64,000 bases of DNA, from the NCBI RefSeq assembly GCF_000740795.1, contig NZ_JGYG01000003.1, positions 310,001 through 374,000 on the forward strand, in the 5' to 3' direction. A program made the translations under genes and the position numbers. Shown here piece by piece: positions 1,963 through 42,224 of this stretch. Under the pieces are notes generated by a model that did not search any database, had not been told where the DNA came from, and saw only the letters and a list, made by a program, of their open reading frames with translations. Positions within the stretch are counted from its first letter, which is position 1. Each line of letters begins with the position of its first letter. The stretch is from Haematobacter massiliensis. Its GTDB lineage: Bacteria; Pseudomonadota; Alphaproteobacteria; Rhodobacterales; Rhodobacteraceae.

Positions 1963-3426
1963 TCAGATCACCATCCCCTCGCTGCCCAGAAGCGCACTCA
2001 TCCGGCAATGGAGGCCCTCCGGCGCGAAATCCATGATGACCTCGCCACCAAAGGTGCCCAGCCCCGCCGCGATCAGCCCCGAGCCGCTTCCCTTTGCCTG
2101 CGGCTCGGACACCGGGGGGCCGCCCTTCTCCCGCCAGTCGAAGGTGAAGCGTCTGCCCTCCGGCACCGTCTCCAGCCCCCAGACGATATCCACTTGCCCC
2201 TCGGGCACGGAAAATGCGCCGTGCTTGAGCGCGTTGGTGCCCAGCTCGTGCACCACGAGCGACAGGCTCATCACGAGTTGTCCGCCGAGCACGACATGCG
2301 GCCCGCTCAGTCTGTAGCGCGCGCTTGTCCCCTCATCATAAGGCGACAGCGCCGCGCGGACGACGGCGGCGACGGTGCTTTCCTCCGCCTCGGTGTTGAG
2401 CAGCAGGTTCTGCGCCCTCCCAAGCGCCATCAGACGCCCGTCAATCACCTGCGCCGCCTCCCGCGTGTCGCGTGCCCGGCGCATTGTCTGGGAAATCACG
2501 GCCCGCACGACGGCGAGCTGATTCTTCATCCGGTGCGACAACTCGTTGGCGATGATCCGTTGCCGCTCCTCCTTCTCCCGCCGGTCGGTGACGTCGATGC
2601 CCTGGATGAGCACCCCGCGCGTCCCCGTCATCGGATCGGCGAAGGGCTGATAGACGAAATCGACGTAATGGCGCGTCATCTCGGCATGATCGTCGTGGAG
2701 CAGATCTATCGGGATGTCGCGGCCTTCGTATGGAGTTCCCGTGGTGAAGACCTGATCCATCAGCCGGATGAAGCCCTGCCCCACGATCTCCGGAAGAACC
2801 TCTGCGGTGGGCCTCCCGATGATGCCGGAATCCTTGCCGCAGAGATAAAGAAACCGCTCATTGGCAAGCGCGAAGACATGGTCCGGGCCCATGACCAGTG
2901 CCGTCGCGCCGGGAGAAAGCCGCAGAACCTCGTAAAGCAGCGCGCGTTCTTGTTCCTGCGCCCGTCGGTGCCGCACCTGTTCGGTGATCTCGTCGCAGGC
3001 GCAGAACATGCCCGGGATATTGCCGCGCGCATCGCGGACCGGCGTGTAGGAGAAGGAGAAATGCGCCTCCTCCGGGTAGCCGTTGCGGTGCATGACAATG
3101 GAGATATCCTCCATATGGGTCGAACGCCCCTCATAGGCGGCCCGCAGGATAGGATAGACATCATCCAGAATATCGGCCCAGAGCACCTGGAAGGGCACGC
3201 CGATCGCCGGATGACGGGCGCCGCAAAGGAGTGCGTAGGCGTCATTGTAGAGCATGATCTCATGCGGCCCCCAGGCCACGAACATCGGTTGGCGGGAGCC
3301 GAGCATGATGCCCACAAGCGTCTTGAGTTCGGTCGGCCATGTCGGGGGCGGCCCCAGCGGATTGGCCGACCAGTCCAGGTCGCGCATGAGGCGCGCGCAT
3401 TCCGTGTCCGCCGAAAACATTGCCAC
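1963..3426 (-). CDS. PAS-PAS sensor histidine kinase of the HWE family
   Basis: 487 residues with no obvious membrane segment, so probably cytoplasmic. Residues ~35-150 and ~165-285 are two PAS domains; the second ends in the typical GIDVTDRREKEERQR linker. The H-box ELSHRMKNQLAVV places the phospho-acceptor at H298. The N-box reads VVHELGTNALKHGA, and the diagnostic WxE motif is in FDWREKGG, which defines the HWE group. Such kinases commonly sense light, oxygen or redox through PAS and often feed general-stress response pathways in alphaproteobacteria. No LOV-type GRNCRFLQ cysteine motif is visible, so the signal is unknown. No response regulator is adjacent. Starts at codon 1 or codon 3 are both possible. 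Confidence 0.9.
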   Translation of the reverse strand: MAMFSADTECARLMRDLDWSANPLGPPPTWPTELKTLVGIMLGSRQPMFVAWGPHEIMLYNDAYALLCGARHPAIGVPFQVLWADILDDVYPILRAAYEGRSTHMEDISIVMHRNGYPEEAHFSFSYTPVRDARGNIPGMFCACDEITEQVRHRRAQEQERALLYEVLRLSPGATALVMGPDHVFALANERFLYLCGKDSGIIGRPTAEVLPEIVGQGFIRLMDQVFTTGTPYEGRDIPIDLLHDDHAEMTRHYVDFVYQPFADPMTGTRGVLIQGIDVTDRREKEERQRIIANELSHRMKNQLAVVRAVISQTMRRARDTREAAQVIDGRLMALGRAQNLLLNTEAEESTVAAVVRAALSPYDEGTSARYRLSGPHVVLGGQLVMSLSLVVHELGTNALKHGAFSVPEGQVDIVWGLETVPEGRRFTFDWREKGGPPVSEPQAKGSGSGLIAAGLGTFGGEVIMDFAPEGLHCRMSALLGSEGMVI

Positions 3427-8708: not shown

Positions 8709-9277
8709 GGACGCCTTTGCCGGGGGCTTGGCGGGCGACCGTCTTCCGGCCCGGATTGCTCCGGCGCGGGTCCGTCCGAGAGCCCGGCCAGAAGCGCCAT
8801 CACAACGCCCTGACCGGCTGCAGAGCACATCCCCGCAAAACGCGGGCGCTCGGCAATGCTTCGGGCAGACAGTCCGGCCTCCTGCGCAAAACAGGGCTGA
8901 GCCAGGCCGTCATCCGACGCGCGCGGGAGCCCTCGGAGCAAAATGCGCTGCGGCCCTGACGCCTTGCGAAGCGCGCGGGACGGCCCGATACCGGCAAAAT
9001 GCACGCGCTCCGGCAACACCGTGAAAGGACAGCCCCGCATCTTTTTGTAAACAGGTGCGATCGTGACCGGCTATCTCAGCCCGCCTCATTTCCTCCCCGC
9101 GCGGCAGGGAAGCGGCAGGGGGCTCCTCACAATGAAATGCCGGAGAATTGCCCGGACACCCGATGCCGGGCAAGGCGCGGGGGGGCGCCCGCGCATAAGC
9201 GCGGCGGGCACACCGGGCGAGGCGATACCGGGCAAGGCGCGGGGGACGCCCCCGCGACCCCCGGCGGGGAGGGTGGA
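8709..9277. other. Gap of ~570 bases between convergent mutS and the reductase gene
   Basis: No convincing gene was found on either strand; the open frames here are arginine- and proline-rich out-of-frame readings of GC-rich DNA. The only clear structure is the duplicated hairpin element at 9162-9255. Confidence 0.5.
9162..9255. repeat. Duplicated GC-rich hairpin element
   Basis: Two near-identical copies starting GAT(G/A)CCGGGCAAGGCGCGGG lie at 9162-9193 and 9224-9255, 62 bases apart. Each contains its own palindrome: 9175-9181 with 9188-9194, and 9239-9245 with 9249-9255 (GCGGGGG/CCCCCGC, three-base loop). They lie just downstream of the leftward reductase gene and may act as a transcription stop or RNA stabiliser. 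Confidence 0.5.
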
Positions 9278-10036
9278 CTAGACCTTGTCCGTCTCGCGGC
9301 GGTGAACGCGCAGCGGTGCCCAGGACTGGCTGACCGGCATCATCTCGATGCTGTTGAAGTTCAGATGCGGCGGCTGGGTGGCCAGCCAGTGAATCGTCTC
9401 GGCGATATCCTCCGGCTGGATCGGATCGGCCCCGTCATACAGCGCGTCATACGCCGCCTGATCGCCACGCGTGCGGATCATGGTGAACTCACTCTCGCAC
9501 AGCCCCGGCTCCAGCGAGGTGACCCGGACCCCGGTGCCATGCAGATCGGCCCGCAGGCCGAGCGAAAACTGCCGCACGAAGGCCTTGGTGGCGGCATAGA
9601 CATTGCCCCCCGGATAGGGCCAGTGCGCGGCGATGGAGGAGAGGTTGACGATCATGCCCTTCCGCGCGATCAGCCCCGGCAGCAGCCTGTGTGTGACCGC
9701 GAGGAGACCGGAAACATTCGTGTCCAGCATGGCCTGCCAGTCCGCAAGCGGCGGTTCCGGCGCCGGCGCGGTGCCGAGCGCCATGCCCGCATTGTTCACG
9801 AGCAGGTCGATCGCCGCGAACTCGGCAGGCAGACTGTCCAGCGCCGCGGCGACGGCGGCGGGATCGGTAATGTCGAAGGCGAGGCCGTGGAAGGTCGGGC
9901 CGATCTCCTCGGCCAGCGTGCGGAGGCGCTCCTCCCTCCGGCCGGTACCCACGATGGTCCAGCCCGCGCGCGCAAAGCGACGGGCGGTGGCCTGACCGAA
10001 ACCGGCAGTCGCCCCGGTGATGAGGATGGTGGGCAT
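9278..10036 (-). CDS. ydfG: Short-chain dehydrogenase, YdfG type (NADP-dependent 3-hydroxy acid dehydrogenase)
   Basis: 252 residues. Classical SDR features are the TGATAGFG cofactor loop near the N-terminus, NNAG, a catalytic Ser in NLSSIAAHWPY and the YAATK active-site Tyr/Lys. An Arg pair after the second beta strand (TGRREERL) favours NADP(H). The C-terminal stretch NSIEMMPVSQSWAPLRVHR is characteristic of YdfG-type enzymes, which oxidise serine, allo-threonine and 3-hydroxy acids. The ATG at 10036 is preceded by AAGGAGACAGCC; an upstream in-frame start at 10099 lacks such a site. Convergent with mutS across ~570 bases. The physiological substrate is uncertain. Confidence 0.85.
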   Translation of the reverse strand: MPTILITGATAGFGQATARRFARAGWTIVGTGRREERLRTLAEEIGPTFHGLAFDITDPAAVAAALDSLPAEFAAIDLLVNNAGMALGTAPAPEPPLADWQAMLDTNVSGLLAVTHRLLPGLIARKGMIVNLSSIAAHWPYPGGNVYAATKAFVRQFSLGLRADLHGTGVRVTSLEPGLCESEFTMIRTRGDQAAYDALYDGADPIQPEDIAETIHWLATQPPHLNFNSIEMMPVSQSWAPLRVHRRETDKV

Positions 10037-26066: not shown

Positions 26067-27968
26067 TTATCGAAGCGCGCCCTGAGCTTTCAGCCGGCCA
26101 AGCTTCGCCTCGTCCATCCACCAAAGCCCGTCTCCACGGGAATAGGGCGGCTTTTCGGGCGGCATGCCGAAGACGTCCCAATAGGCCACCAGATACTTGC
26201 CGGAATACCAGTTCGGCACCCAGATCTGCTTGGAGCGGAGCACCCGGTCCAGCGCCTTGGCACGGGCATCCAACTCCTCCCGCGTTTTCGACTGGATGAC
26301 CTTTTCGATCAGAGCATCCACCACCGGGTCAGCCACGCCGGAGAGGTTGGCCGAATCCGGTGTCGCCGCCGCTTCGGAGGAGAAAAGCTGCCGGAGTTCG
26401 ATGGAGGGGCTGAGCGACATGACGAACCGCCCGCTCATGATGTCGTAATCGAAATCCTTCTGCCGCTGCTGCATCTGCGCACTGTCGATCCGCGTCAGGC
26501 GGGCATCCACGCCGATGCGGCCCAGGTTCTGGATATAGGGATTCAGCACCCGGTCCATCGAGGTGCCGTCCTCGATGAATTCCAGCGTCAGCCGCTCGCC
26601 CTTGGCATTCTGGCGCATTCCGCTCGGCCCGACGGACCAGCCCGCCTCGTCCAGAAGCTCCGAGGCGCGGCGGCGGTTTTCCCGGTCGACCTGCTGCTTG
26701 CCCGAAACCGGCGGCTCAAAGGCGGGTGCGGTGAAGATCTCCGGGGGCAGCTTGTCACGGAACTCCTCCAGCACGGCCAGTTCCTCCCCCTCCGGGAGGC
26801 CCTCCGCCTGCATGGGGGAATTCTCGAAGAAACTGTCGGTGCGCTTGTAGAGGCCGTAGAACAGCGTCTCGTTCGTCCATTCGAAGTTGAACATCAGCCC
26901 GATGGCCTCACGCACGCGCGGGTCCTGAAACTTCTCGCGCCGGAGGTTGAACCAGAAGCCCTGCGTACCCGAGGGCGTCGCGTCCTCCAGCTCCTCCCGC
27001 TTCACCCAGCCACGCTCCACCGCGGGAAAGTTGTAGCCTGTCGCCCAGAGCAGGGAGAAGAACTCCTGCTGATAGAGGAACTGCCCGACCTTGAACGCCT
27101 CGAAAGCGGCATTGTTGTCGGCGAAATACTGATACGTGTAGCAGTCGAAGTTCGCCATGCCGATATTCACCGGCAAATCCTTGGCCCAGTAATCGGGGTT
27201 CCGGCAATAGGTGATGGACCGACCGGGCTGTGCATTGCTGACCACGAACTGCCCCGAGCCCACGGGCGGGGTCATCGTGGACTGCGCAAAATCCACGGTG
27301 TCGTAATAGTGCTTGGGCAGGATCGACAGCCCGCCCGCCAGCATCGGCAGATCGCGCGTGGCCGCGCCTTCCTTGAAGGTGAATTTCACCCGGTGGGGGT
27401 CAAGCGCCTCGACATTCTCGATGTCGCGGAGGGAGATGCGATAGGCGGGGGAGCCCTTCTCCAGCAGCACCTTCCAGGTAAAGACCACATCTTCCGCCGT
27501 GATCGGCTGACCGTCGGAGAATGTCGCCTCCGGCCGCATGGTGAAGATCACCCAGGAGCGGTCCTCCGGGTATTCCACGCTCGAAGCCACCAGGCCATAC
27601 GCGGCATCAGGCTCGTCCGGCGCGCCGGAAAGCAGGCTGTCGTACAGCATCGCCAGCCCCTGTGCCGGATTGCCCTTCAGCACGAAGGCGTTCAGGCTGT
27701 CGAAAGTCTGGCTCGCGCCGGTGCCCCGAAAGGTCATCGTGCCGCCTTTGGGTGCTTCGGGGTTCACGAAGTCGAAGTGGCTGAAATCGGCGGGGTATTT
27801 CAGATCGCCGAAGGTGGAGATGCCGTGGGAGGTGATGACCTTCTGTTCCTGAGCCAAGGCCATCGAGGGGCCGAGCGTCAGAAACGGCAGTGTCAGGAGC
27901 AGGATGCGGGAGGAAATCGCAGACGGTTTCCGTTCCGCGATAATAGGTGTCCTCGGGTCAACCGGCAT
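26067..27968 (-). CDS. yejA: Extracellular peptide-binding protein YejA (SBP family 5)
   Basis: 633 residues from the ATG at 27968, preceded by GGAGGGACAGG. A signal peptide (about residues 1-39, ending SMALAQ) directs it to the periplasm. The family-5 solute-binding fold is visible in [41 protein letters not shown] and the C-terminal [20 protein letters not shown]. YejABEF systems import oligopeptides, including antimicrobial peptides and microcin C-type molecules. An in-frame start 17 codons upstream would give an unusually long signal sequence. Confidence 0.93.
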
Positions 27969-28983
27969 CCTGTCCCTCCGATAGCATCGTTTCGCGCCAG
28001 CTAAGGGCGCAAGCGGCAAAGTTTCAAGTTGCGATTGCGTGAGAGACTGCGCCGCCGGGCAGGATAGACGGAAAACCGATCACATACACCCCAAAGCAAT
28101 GGCTCCCTGACGGCGTTGTCCTTGCAGACCTTCTTCTCAGGTATTCTCGGGGCCTCCCCGCCTCTCCCGCCTCCCCGAACCAGTTGCCATACCGGTCCAT
28201 TATTCTGCGGCAGAGGAGCCGCGGGCAAAGGCAGAACGGCTGAGTTTCGCAAGGATGCAGGGCGGATCTCACGGAGCGGCGGTGGTCAGATTACGGATGA
28301 TCTCGGCGCCGGCGTCCCTGTTGTAAGGGTAGGTGAAAACGCACCGCGGCGCGGATGCAGGTCTCCGCCGAGGATCGCCATCTCCGAGCGAACGGCTTCG
28401 GCGCGCTCCGCCGCATCCGTGAGGCAGGGAGCGGCATCCAAGCCAACCAGGTCTTCGCAAACCCAATGCCGCGAGGTTCGGGTTCGTCGAGGAGCCGTCG
28501 GACCCACCCGCTTTACCGGCTGCATGTCAGCCCTCGCGGCTTAGGGCCTTTCGCAACCCCCTGACAGCACCGGACAGGGTGGCACCGGGACATGGTGGTT
28601 CTCGGCGCAGATCAAACGGCCTCGCGTGCGGGGCTGGTTCCGGTGCGGGGCCCGTTAAACGGTGCCGTGCTGCCAAGCGGCCTCGCGCGCGGGGCTGGGC
28701 GGGGCTGAATCGTTCGCGCCTGGCCGCGCCCGCTGGTCATAACCAAGCGGCTTCGCGCGCGGGGCTGGATCGCATTGGTCGACCCTTAAAACCCTTCCCC
28801 AGATCAAGCGGCCTCGCGCGCGGGGCTTTGGTCGATATCGGGCGCCGGCGTATCGGTCAGTGAAGCGGGATCGACAGTGGTTACAATACGGCTGCTGAAC
28901 ACGACCGCCTGTTCAACAGCGCGCTGGAGCTGCCGGCTCCCGGTCACGCGCAATGCCCGCCGCGTGGCTTGGCTACGCAACAG
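27969..28983. other. Repeat-bearing intergenic region of ~1 kb
   Basis: No convincing gene. At 28269-28525 the minus strand shows two overlapping short frames. Their joined reading would end RCVFTYPYNRDAGAEIIRNL, which has more protein-like composition than the surroundings, so a frameshifted gene remnant is possible but unproven. The second half holds the four-copy repeat at 28613-28827. Confidence 0.45.
28613..28827. repeat. Four-copy 24-bp interspersed repeat with 61/70/61 spacing
   Basis: Copies start at 28613, 28674, 28744 and 28805. Their common core is CGGC(C/T)TCGCG(C/T)GCGGGGCT preceded by CAA(G/A). The core contains a near-perfect palindrome, CCTCGC/GCGGGG. Gaps between copies are 37, 46 and 37 bases; the longer one begins with a tandem repeat of the unit's GCGGGGCTG end, which accounts for the extra ~9 bases. 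The period and hairpin core resemble a small or decayed CRISPR array, but no cas genes are near and the first and third gaps share a CCC(G/T)TTAAA-like patch, which favours a decayed tandem repeat. Confidence 0.6.
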
Positions 28984-29007
28984 AAAAAGGCCGGCGCAGG
29001 CCGGCCT
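28984..29007 (-). terminator. Rho-independent terminator of the cytochrome c gene
   Basis: On the minus strand AGGCCGG (29007-29001) pairs with CCGGCCT (28994-28988) around a six-base loop and runs into five T (28988-28984). It lies 27 bases after the cytochrome stop. Confidence 0.8.
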
Positions 29008-29033: not shown

Positions 29034-29549
29034 TCAGTGCGGCAGCGATTCCAGATAGGCGATGAGGTCCACACGTTCCTTGATGCGCGGCAGCCCGACA
29101 AAGGACATCTTGGTGCCGGGGACATCGGCCTTGGGGTTGGCAAGGAACTCGCTCAGCTTCTCGGGCGTCCAGTCGCCGCCATGAGTCTTCATCGCGTCCG
29201 AATAGCCGAAACCTTCGACAGCGCCGACCGCGCGGCCGACCACGCCGTCCAGATGCGGGCCGGTGGCATTGGCGCCATCGATCTTGTGGCAGGCGCGGCA
29301 TTTGGCGAACACCTTCTCGCCCGCGGCGGCATCGGCGGTGGCGAAGACCTCCTCGAACGGCGGCTCGTCGGAGGCAGCCGCAGCGCCCGCTTCCTCCGCG
29401 CCCGTGTCGATCACATAGGCGGCGTGTTCCTCTCCATGACCACCCCCCACGGAGAACAGGGCGCTGGCGGCCCAGTTCGACAGCATCAGGATGAGAAGGG
29501 CCCCGCAGAAAGCGGCGACGGTCTTGGTCACGGTCATCTGGTCAAACAT
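29034..29549 (-). CDS. cycM: Membrane-anchored class I cytochrome c (CycM / cytochrome c552 type)
   Basis: 171 residues: an uncleaved N-terminal membrane helix (about residues 10-33), an Ala/Glu-rich flexible linker (~35-70) and a mitochondrial-type cytochrome c domain. Haem binding is C84-R-A-C87-H88; the distal ligand is M148 in GTKMSF. It carries electrons in the periplasm, most likely between the bc1 complex and a terminal oxidase, as known for cytochrome cy/CycM in Rhodobacter and Paracoccus. Divergent from pheA and followed by a strong terminator. Confidence 0.93.
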
Positions 29550-39062: not shown

Positions 39063-39160
39063 GCGAGAGGTTGGCGCGGGCGAGCGCCTTGCCAACCCGG
39101 TCAGGTCCGGAAGGAAGCAGCCGTAACGAGTCCCGCTTGGGTCGTCGTCCAGCCTCTCAC
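39063..39160 (+). ncRNA. ffs: Signal recognition particle 4.5S RNA (bacterial small SRP RNA)
   Basis: The hallmark SRP tip GGTCAGGTCCGGAAGGAAGC and the following AGCCGTAACGA are present at about 39099-39127. Flanking arms GAGAGGTTGG (39065-39074) and CCAGCCTCTC (39149-39158) close the single long hairpin. It binds Ffh and directs inner-membrane proteins to the translocon. Ends are approximate to a few bases. Confidence 0.95.
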
Positions 39161-39237
39161 CTTACTCTCCCGAAAATCGTTGAGCAGCGGCCGGTCTTGT
39201 CCCAATCTGTCCGGATACCCACGGACAGGAGGAGCCG

Positions 39238-42148: not shown

Positions 42149-42224
42149 TGGTGCCGCAGAAGGGACTCGAACCCCCGACCCCATCATTACGAATGACGTG
42201 CTCTACCAGCTGAGCTACTGCGGC
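42149..42224 (-). tRNA. tRNA-Thr (anticodon CGU)
   Basis: A 76-base gene with encoded CCA. Acceptor stem GCCGCAG/CTGCGGC pairs perfectly, followed by discriminator A. The D arm is GCTC-AGCTGGTA-GAGC, the anticodon stem CGTCA/TGATG holds the loop TTCGTAA, and the T loop is TTCGAGT. The anticodon CGT reads the threonine codon ACG, common in this GC-rich genome. Confidence 0.96.

Follow-up and report, generated by a model that had tools for sequence, protein, structure and literature searches.

A CRISPR-like array with a non-native repeat in Haematobacter massiliensis, probably seeded off target by type I-E Cas1-Cas2

Introduction

Neo-CRISPR loci, which arise from off-target integration by Cas1-Cas2, are said to have been described by Nivala, Shipman and Church in 2018, reportedly with putative examples from nature in Yersinia pestis and Sulfolobus islandicus. 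Integration outside arrays is known in vitro, according to the available text of one source (PMC10011333), and the accessible part of another attributes off-array integration in E. coli to overexpression of Cas1-Cas2 (Nivala et al, 2018, as cited in PMC11788318). A published model, as outlined in part of its source, has Cas1 bind stem-loops elsewhere in the genome (PMC9456107). For E. coli, the sections available describe a 33-bp protospacer whose first G is supplied by the AAG PAM (PMC10011333). The origin of new CRISPR arrays and of new repeat sequences is an open question, which the comparison of genomes with such loci makes testable.

Here, we describe a locus with four repeats and three spacers in the 4.13-Mb genome of Haematobacter massiliensis (G000). 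It lies in the window, that is, the whole stretch of 64,000 nucleotides that was analysed. We consider it probable that the type I-E Cas1-Cas2 of the host made this CRISPR-like array off target.

Results

A four-copy repeat at regular spacing

The original prediction placed four repeat copies at 28613, 28674, 28744 and 28805, spaced 61, 70 and 61 bp apart, and all four were recovered there (Table 1). A search with the 23-mer of the repeat at up to three mismatches returned four matches in the window and four in the 4.13-Mb genome, all of them at the array, and zero in 100 dinucleotide shuffles of the window. With four copies in one place only, the suggestion that this might be a dispersed palindromic repeat falls away. 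The wide middle spacing had been explained by a duplication of about 9 bases within copy 2; the duplication is present, with a period of 10 (GCGGGGCTGG), and without it the middle spacing is 60 bp (61 if it is counted as a 9-bp insertion). Near-identical short repeats thus recur at a regular spacing of 61/60+10/61, as in a CRISPR array.

The conserved core comprises 23 bp, not 28. At core positions 1-23, 129 of 138 pairwise comparisons agree; positions 24-29 agree among copies 1-3 (12/18, p 0.0015), but over all four copies not beyond chance, where the agreement is 13/36 (p 0.12). Copies 1 and 4 have exactly 28 bp in common, in a register that is shifted by 5 bases and conflicts with that of spacer 3. 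The divergence of the copies suggests decay. In line with the original note of a palindromic core, a hairpin is predicted in every copy, with the qualification that the palindrome contains two G-T pairs. RNA folding of the 29-mers gave -10.3 to -13.3 kcal/mol on the plus strand, which is more stable than the -4.7 to -6.7 kcal/mol obtained on the minus strand. The peptide SPAREA, said to be read from three copies in one minus-strand frame, does occur three times, but in three different frames. A coding repeat was rejected, as a Pfam search of the 10 stop-to-stop frames of the array segment yielded zero matches above cut-off.

Table 1. Features of the array locus and candidate single insertions (window positions, unless a contig of the same genome is named)
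Feature	Position	Strand	Description
Flanking gene	26067..27971	-	Peptide-binding protein (SBP_bac_5)
Segment of G000	28121..28984		Between conserved blocks; without counterpart in two sister species (G001, G002)
Repeat 1	28613..28640	+	28 bp in native-repeat register; outer edges inferred
Spacer 1	28641..28673	+	33 bp; unrelated to other gaps; no supported source
Repeat 2	28674..28711	+	28 bp + 10-bp internal duplication
Spacer 2	28712..28743	+	32 bp; no source found
Repeat 3	28744..28771	+	28 bp
Spacer 3	28772..28804	+	33 bp; 27/33 to prophage gene, AAG at 5' edge
Repeat 4	28805..28832	+	Last repeat; 3' end diverged
Terminator-like hairpin	28988..29007	-	Behind cytochrome gene; 1 found, 1.0 expected in shuffles
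Flanking gene	29034..29549	-	Cytochrome c
S1	C3:103321		28 bp repeated, one change; 33-bp insert, 33% GC
S2	C3:116957		28/27 bp repeated, 33-bp insert; maximal gap-free repeat 23 (indel)
S3	C1:309670		28 bp repeated, 32-bp insert
S4	C1:21031		28 bp repeated, 33-bp insert
S5	9161..9251	+	Possible single insertion; ~28-30 bp repeated at distance 62, one indel; gap-free 23

The native type I-E locus and its repeat

The original prediction found no cas gene in view. This holds for the neighbourhood of the array, but not for the genome, which carries a complete type I-E locus on contig C8 (cas3, cse1, cse2, cas7, cas5, cas6e, cas1e and cas2e by NCBIfam models, the cas3 assignment passing the domain cut-offs and not that of the full-length model). 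Both genes that off-target Cas1-Cas2 integration requires, type I-E cas1 and cas2, are therefore present. In the sister species G001, no cas1 was found; G002 has a short cas1-like fragment on its contig C16 (stretch L058, ~1015-1257).

The native array adjoins the cas genes and comprises 67 repeats at a pitch of 61 bp, with one step of 60, each unit consisting of a 28-bp repeat and a 33-bp spacer. The window array, whose period had been called CRISPR-like, has this same 61-bp pitch. When native spacers are taken as the 33-mers that follow the 28-bp repeat, 63 of the 66 begin with G. An attempt to derive the native PAM gave mixed flanks for the five native spacers with matches of at least 25/33.

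The two arrays differ in their repeats. Aligned with the native repeat, the window copies agree at 14-19 of 29 positions; 37 positions of the window reach 18, and none of the 67 matches to the native repeat lies at the window array. We rejected a decayed fragment of the native array because the repeat differs.

Direct repeats 60-62 bp apart elsewhere in the genome

If a type I-E integrase acts off target, an excess of direct repeats 61 bp apart is predicted. We scanned 1,271,716 bases of the genome (30.8%) for pairs matching at no fewer than 20 of 22 positions at distances of 30-200 bp. Among the 101 pairs found, 77 lay in satellite-like regions and were dropped, and the 24 kept comprise 5 of the array and 19 other loci. 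Five of these 19 (S1-S5, Table 1) fall at distances of 60-62 bp, against 14 at the remaining 168 distances (Poisson P 6.6e-6 for five loci). The distance prediction was set down after the first locus (S5) had been seen and before the other four, for which our arithmetic gives P ~1e-4. An exact gap-free repeat of 28 bp was observed at S1, S3 and S4 and not once among the 14 loci outside 60-62 bp, where the repeats measure 17-68 bp. These counts were made without a low-complexity filter, which at 20/22 drops S4; with the filter and a threshold of 19/22 (872 kb), pairs at 60-62 bp account for 8/35 in G000, 0/8 in G001 and 1/12 in G002.

Three other genomes, scanned over 1.215 Mb in total, gave zero pairs at 60-62 bp; in them, 3 of 95 (G001, 400 kb), 5 of 71 (G002, 415 kb) and 3 of 3 pairs (G041, 400 kb) were kept. 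Since G041 carries cas1e and shows no such pair in its 400 kb, the effect is either not general or rare. Likewise, 400 kb of contig C2 of G000 contain no pair at this distance.

A 28-bp duplication is seen at S1, S3 and S4, the S2 sequence is single in G001, and the array has no sister counterpart. The first copy at S2 consists of the last bases of scpB together with its stop codon (Pfam). A 17-mer from this site occurs twice in G000, 61 bp apart, once in G001, and not in G002 at up to one mismatch. The G001 site is not a clean empty site: the sequences differ beyond ~20 common bases, and their lengths differ by a net 52 rather than 61. For S1, S3 and S4, the compared sister stretches hold no comparable segment. 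Degenerate copies stand 58 bp ahead of S3 and 61 bp behind it, so that it may be a second small array: at 9619-9825 of stretch L147 (G000 C1:309.6k), a small degenerate array has four hairpin copies spaced 58, 60 and 61 bp apart; the surrounding stretch is much shorter in G002. S5 is the least secure of the five, because its palindrome recurs elsewhere; its core is single in the compared stretches of both sisters. This GC-rich palindrome, GGGCGTCCCCCGCGCC, is met again at 419-516 of stretch L133 and 14581-14611 of L132, one recurrence being a pair 73 bp apart.

With register and variant partly chosen by hand, the six targets reach a likeness sum of 85 to the native repeat, against a mean of 62 for window 28-mers (0 of 20,000 draws). 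The array target is the best of the six (17/28, p 0.002), a soft value as its consensus register was chosen with the native repeat in view. A targeting rule based on hairpin sites was rejected, only two of the six targets folding unusually well.

Where the inserts came from

Candidate sources were found for two inserts. That of S3 matches a gene of the same genome with a MoCF_biosynth domain at 31/33 positions (E 8.7e-9 in the DNA searched). Spacer 3, taken as the 33-mer behind a 28-bp repeat, agrees at 27/33 positions with the final part of a gene at C3:178.5k, and the AA before its first G completes an AAG. A match of 27/33 was reached by 1 of 15,150 dinucleotide shuffles, with eight inserts tried, and 630 of 14,794 real 33-mers from another genus also reach 27; what suggests uptake of spacer 3 from this site is the PAM together with edges that fit, rather than the strength of the match. 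The matched gene had no counterpart in a PHROGs search. As its neighbours encode a tail fibre, tape measure, distal tail and head protease, and IMG/VR holds one identical and one 49% relative, we regard the region as a prophage. Among the three spacers, one thus has a candidate source in a mobile element. A tailed-phage prophage spans stretches L100-L102 (G000 C3:160-220k); in the DNA searched, two of the five native spacers with matches of at least 25/33 match L100-L101 and one matches L102 (25-26/33).

No supported source for spacers 1 and 2 emerged from the phage, plasmid and viral-contig searches. A 19-mer of spacer 1 occurs in two IMG/VR contigs, where the full 33-mer matches at 28/33 (L091) and 23/33 positions (L090). 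These matches lie in different genes that have T-A-P-F-N-G codons in common, and neither has an AAG; the reversed 19-mer has no match in IMG/VR. They may be due to chance, and we treat them as such. The phage collection gave zero matches for the array and 3 weak ones for spacer 1, and the plasmid search 10 weak records for the array and 2 for spacer 1. Viral contigs contain neither the exact 20-mer of spacer 2 nor the exact 19-mer of spacer 3, and the S1 insert matched 2 weak phage records and zero viral contigs. Missing phage matches carry little information here, since even the whole native array, which returned 36 phage records, gave only short or repeat-driven matches among the twelve examined.

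Alternative explanations

The best of the alternatives, which we nonetheless hold to be unlikely, is a relic: a once ordinary type I-E-like array with its own repeat that arrived with a species-specific segment, lost its cas genes and is now decaying. The repeat that differs from the native one, the 28+33 geometry and the phage-like spacer would all fit, as would the comparison with the sister species. On either side of the segment at ~28121-28984, G001 and G002 are 88-91% alike to G000, and the segment itself has no counterpart in them; both have other DNA there, which leaves the array without an empty site for comparison. The three flanking-genome BLAST matches examined lack the array. Against a relic stands the distribution of the repeat: of the 394 family genomes searched, 52 contain a match to the 23-mer with three or fewer mismatches, yet none except this one has two matches on one contig, so that a second array with such a repeat is absent among them. 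The only exact match in the genome collection is in a Bacteroidales MAG. A relic would, moreover, leave the other loci at 60-62 bp unexplained. The place of the array in G001 and G002 is filled by satellites of 7-8-bp units (stretches L023, ~780-1240, and L024, ~2950-3085).

A false CRISPR, either a decayed 61-bp tandem repeat or a chance cluster of a GC-rich repeat, is improbable. The intergenic region is prone to repeats, as the satellites in the sisters illustrate, copies 1 and 4 are both preceded by CAGAT, gaps 1 and 3 have 15 of 38 positions in common in register, and, in the comparison with shuffles, one of the six gap pairs has p 0.0485, uncorrected for the number of pairs. The CC-TTAAA patch common to gaps 1 and 3, which had been counted against a CRISPR array, is within chance. 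Local gap-against-gap alignment scores fall inside the range of pairs drawn from 66 real native spacers (p 0.06 to 0.72). Alignment of the full units, the check by which the original prediction would have recognised a tandem repeat, shows only chance agreement outside the repeat: at unit positions 30-61, 53 of 189 comparisons agree (28%), as in shuffled gaps (p 0.32), in contrast to the near-complete agreement of the core. We therefore reject the tandem repeat, since the gaps lack any likeness although the cores and the unit length are kept. The gaps behave as CRISPR spacers do, with lengths of 33, 32 and 33 bp in the chosen register and no mutual relationship.

Operator sites or RNA hairpins that regulate the neighbouring transporter are very improbable: a plus-strand hairpin is predicted in all four copies and the single change in its stem, C to T in copy 3, preserves pairing, but the repeats are absent beside the same gene in both sisters, lie ~640 bp from the transporter start, have no promoter-like site on the plus strand, and match no Rfam family at gathering score, giving sub-threshold matches only. 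Elsewhere in the window, the only Rfam matches at gathering score are a bacterial small SRP RNA at 39064-39162 (+) and a tRNA at 42152-42224 (-).

Discussion

The original reading of the locus as an orphan or decayed CRISPR mini-array survives in part. Its pitch, its unrelated gaps and spacer 3 with its AAG speak for a CRISPR mini-array; it is probably a new array seeded off target, and not a decayed native piece. In the origin that we propose, Cas1-Cas2 would have treated a GC-rich piece of chromosome that resembles a repeat as if it were a CRISPR repeat. A first insertion of a 33-bp DNA fragment would have duplicated the 28-bp target, and two later insertions would have added spacers at the same 61-bp pitch, while other sites in the genome would have kept single insertions of the same kind. 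Off-target integration, three times over, would account for the pitch, the gaps, spacer 3 and the other loci; we infer both the part of Cas1-Cas2 in making the window array and the order of its growth. Against this origin stand the lack of an empty site at the array, its 23-bp core, the shifted register common to copies 1 and 4, the absence of a recognised leader, and the 400 kb each of G041 and of contig C2 in which no such site was found. More tentatively, the integrase of this lineage could be one that errs often, leaving a dozen or more single spacers per genome, taken from phages and from the genome's own genes, some of which grow into new arrays with new repeats. If the proposal is true, the birth of CRISPR arrays has been caught in nature, and the genome holds a lasting record of integrase errors. 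It would also provide a simple signature for such errors in any type I-E genome, namely 28-bp duplications at a 61-bp pitch.

Among described systems, small arrays without neighbouring cas genes resemble the window array in size and in the lack of cas genes beside it, and differ in that the repeat of the window array does not resemble the native repeat of its genome. False-CRISPR elements (tandem repeats, STAR-like elements and simple repeats), as the available text of their source presents them (PMC5294841), are likewise short, isolated and GC-rich; here, in contrast, the gaps are unrelated and the repeat is neither dispersed nor simple. With the type I-E array of E. coli, to the extent that it is covered by the accessible sections of PMC10011333, the locus has in common the pitch of 61, a hairpin repeat, unrelated spacers and an AAG at one candidate protospacer, whereas its repeat is non-native, its copies diverge, and neither a leader nor cas genes adjoin it.

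A limited literature search by titles and abstract openings revealed, among the matches listed, no description of a natural genome in which single spacers with 28-bp duplications occur at several places. The mechanism itself has been described in E. coli; what may be new is that one natural genome combines a grown array with several single insertions. The closest likeness is to neo-CRISPR loci, with which the array and the single insertions would have in common a 28-bp target duplication, a 33-bp insert off the native array and a new repeat made from local sequence. Unlike those loci, the present case comprises several loci in one natural genome, one of which has grown to three spacers, together with an insert that matches the genome's own DNA and a sister species in which a site is present in single copy.
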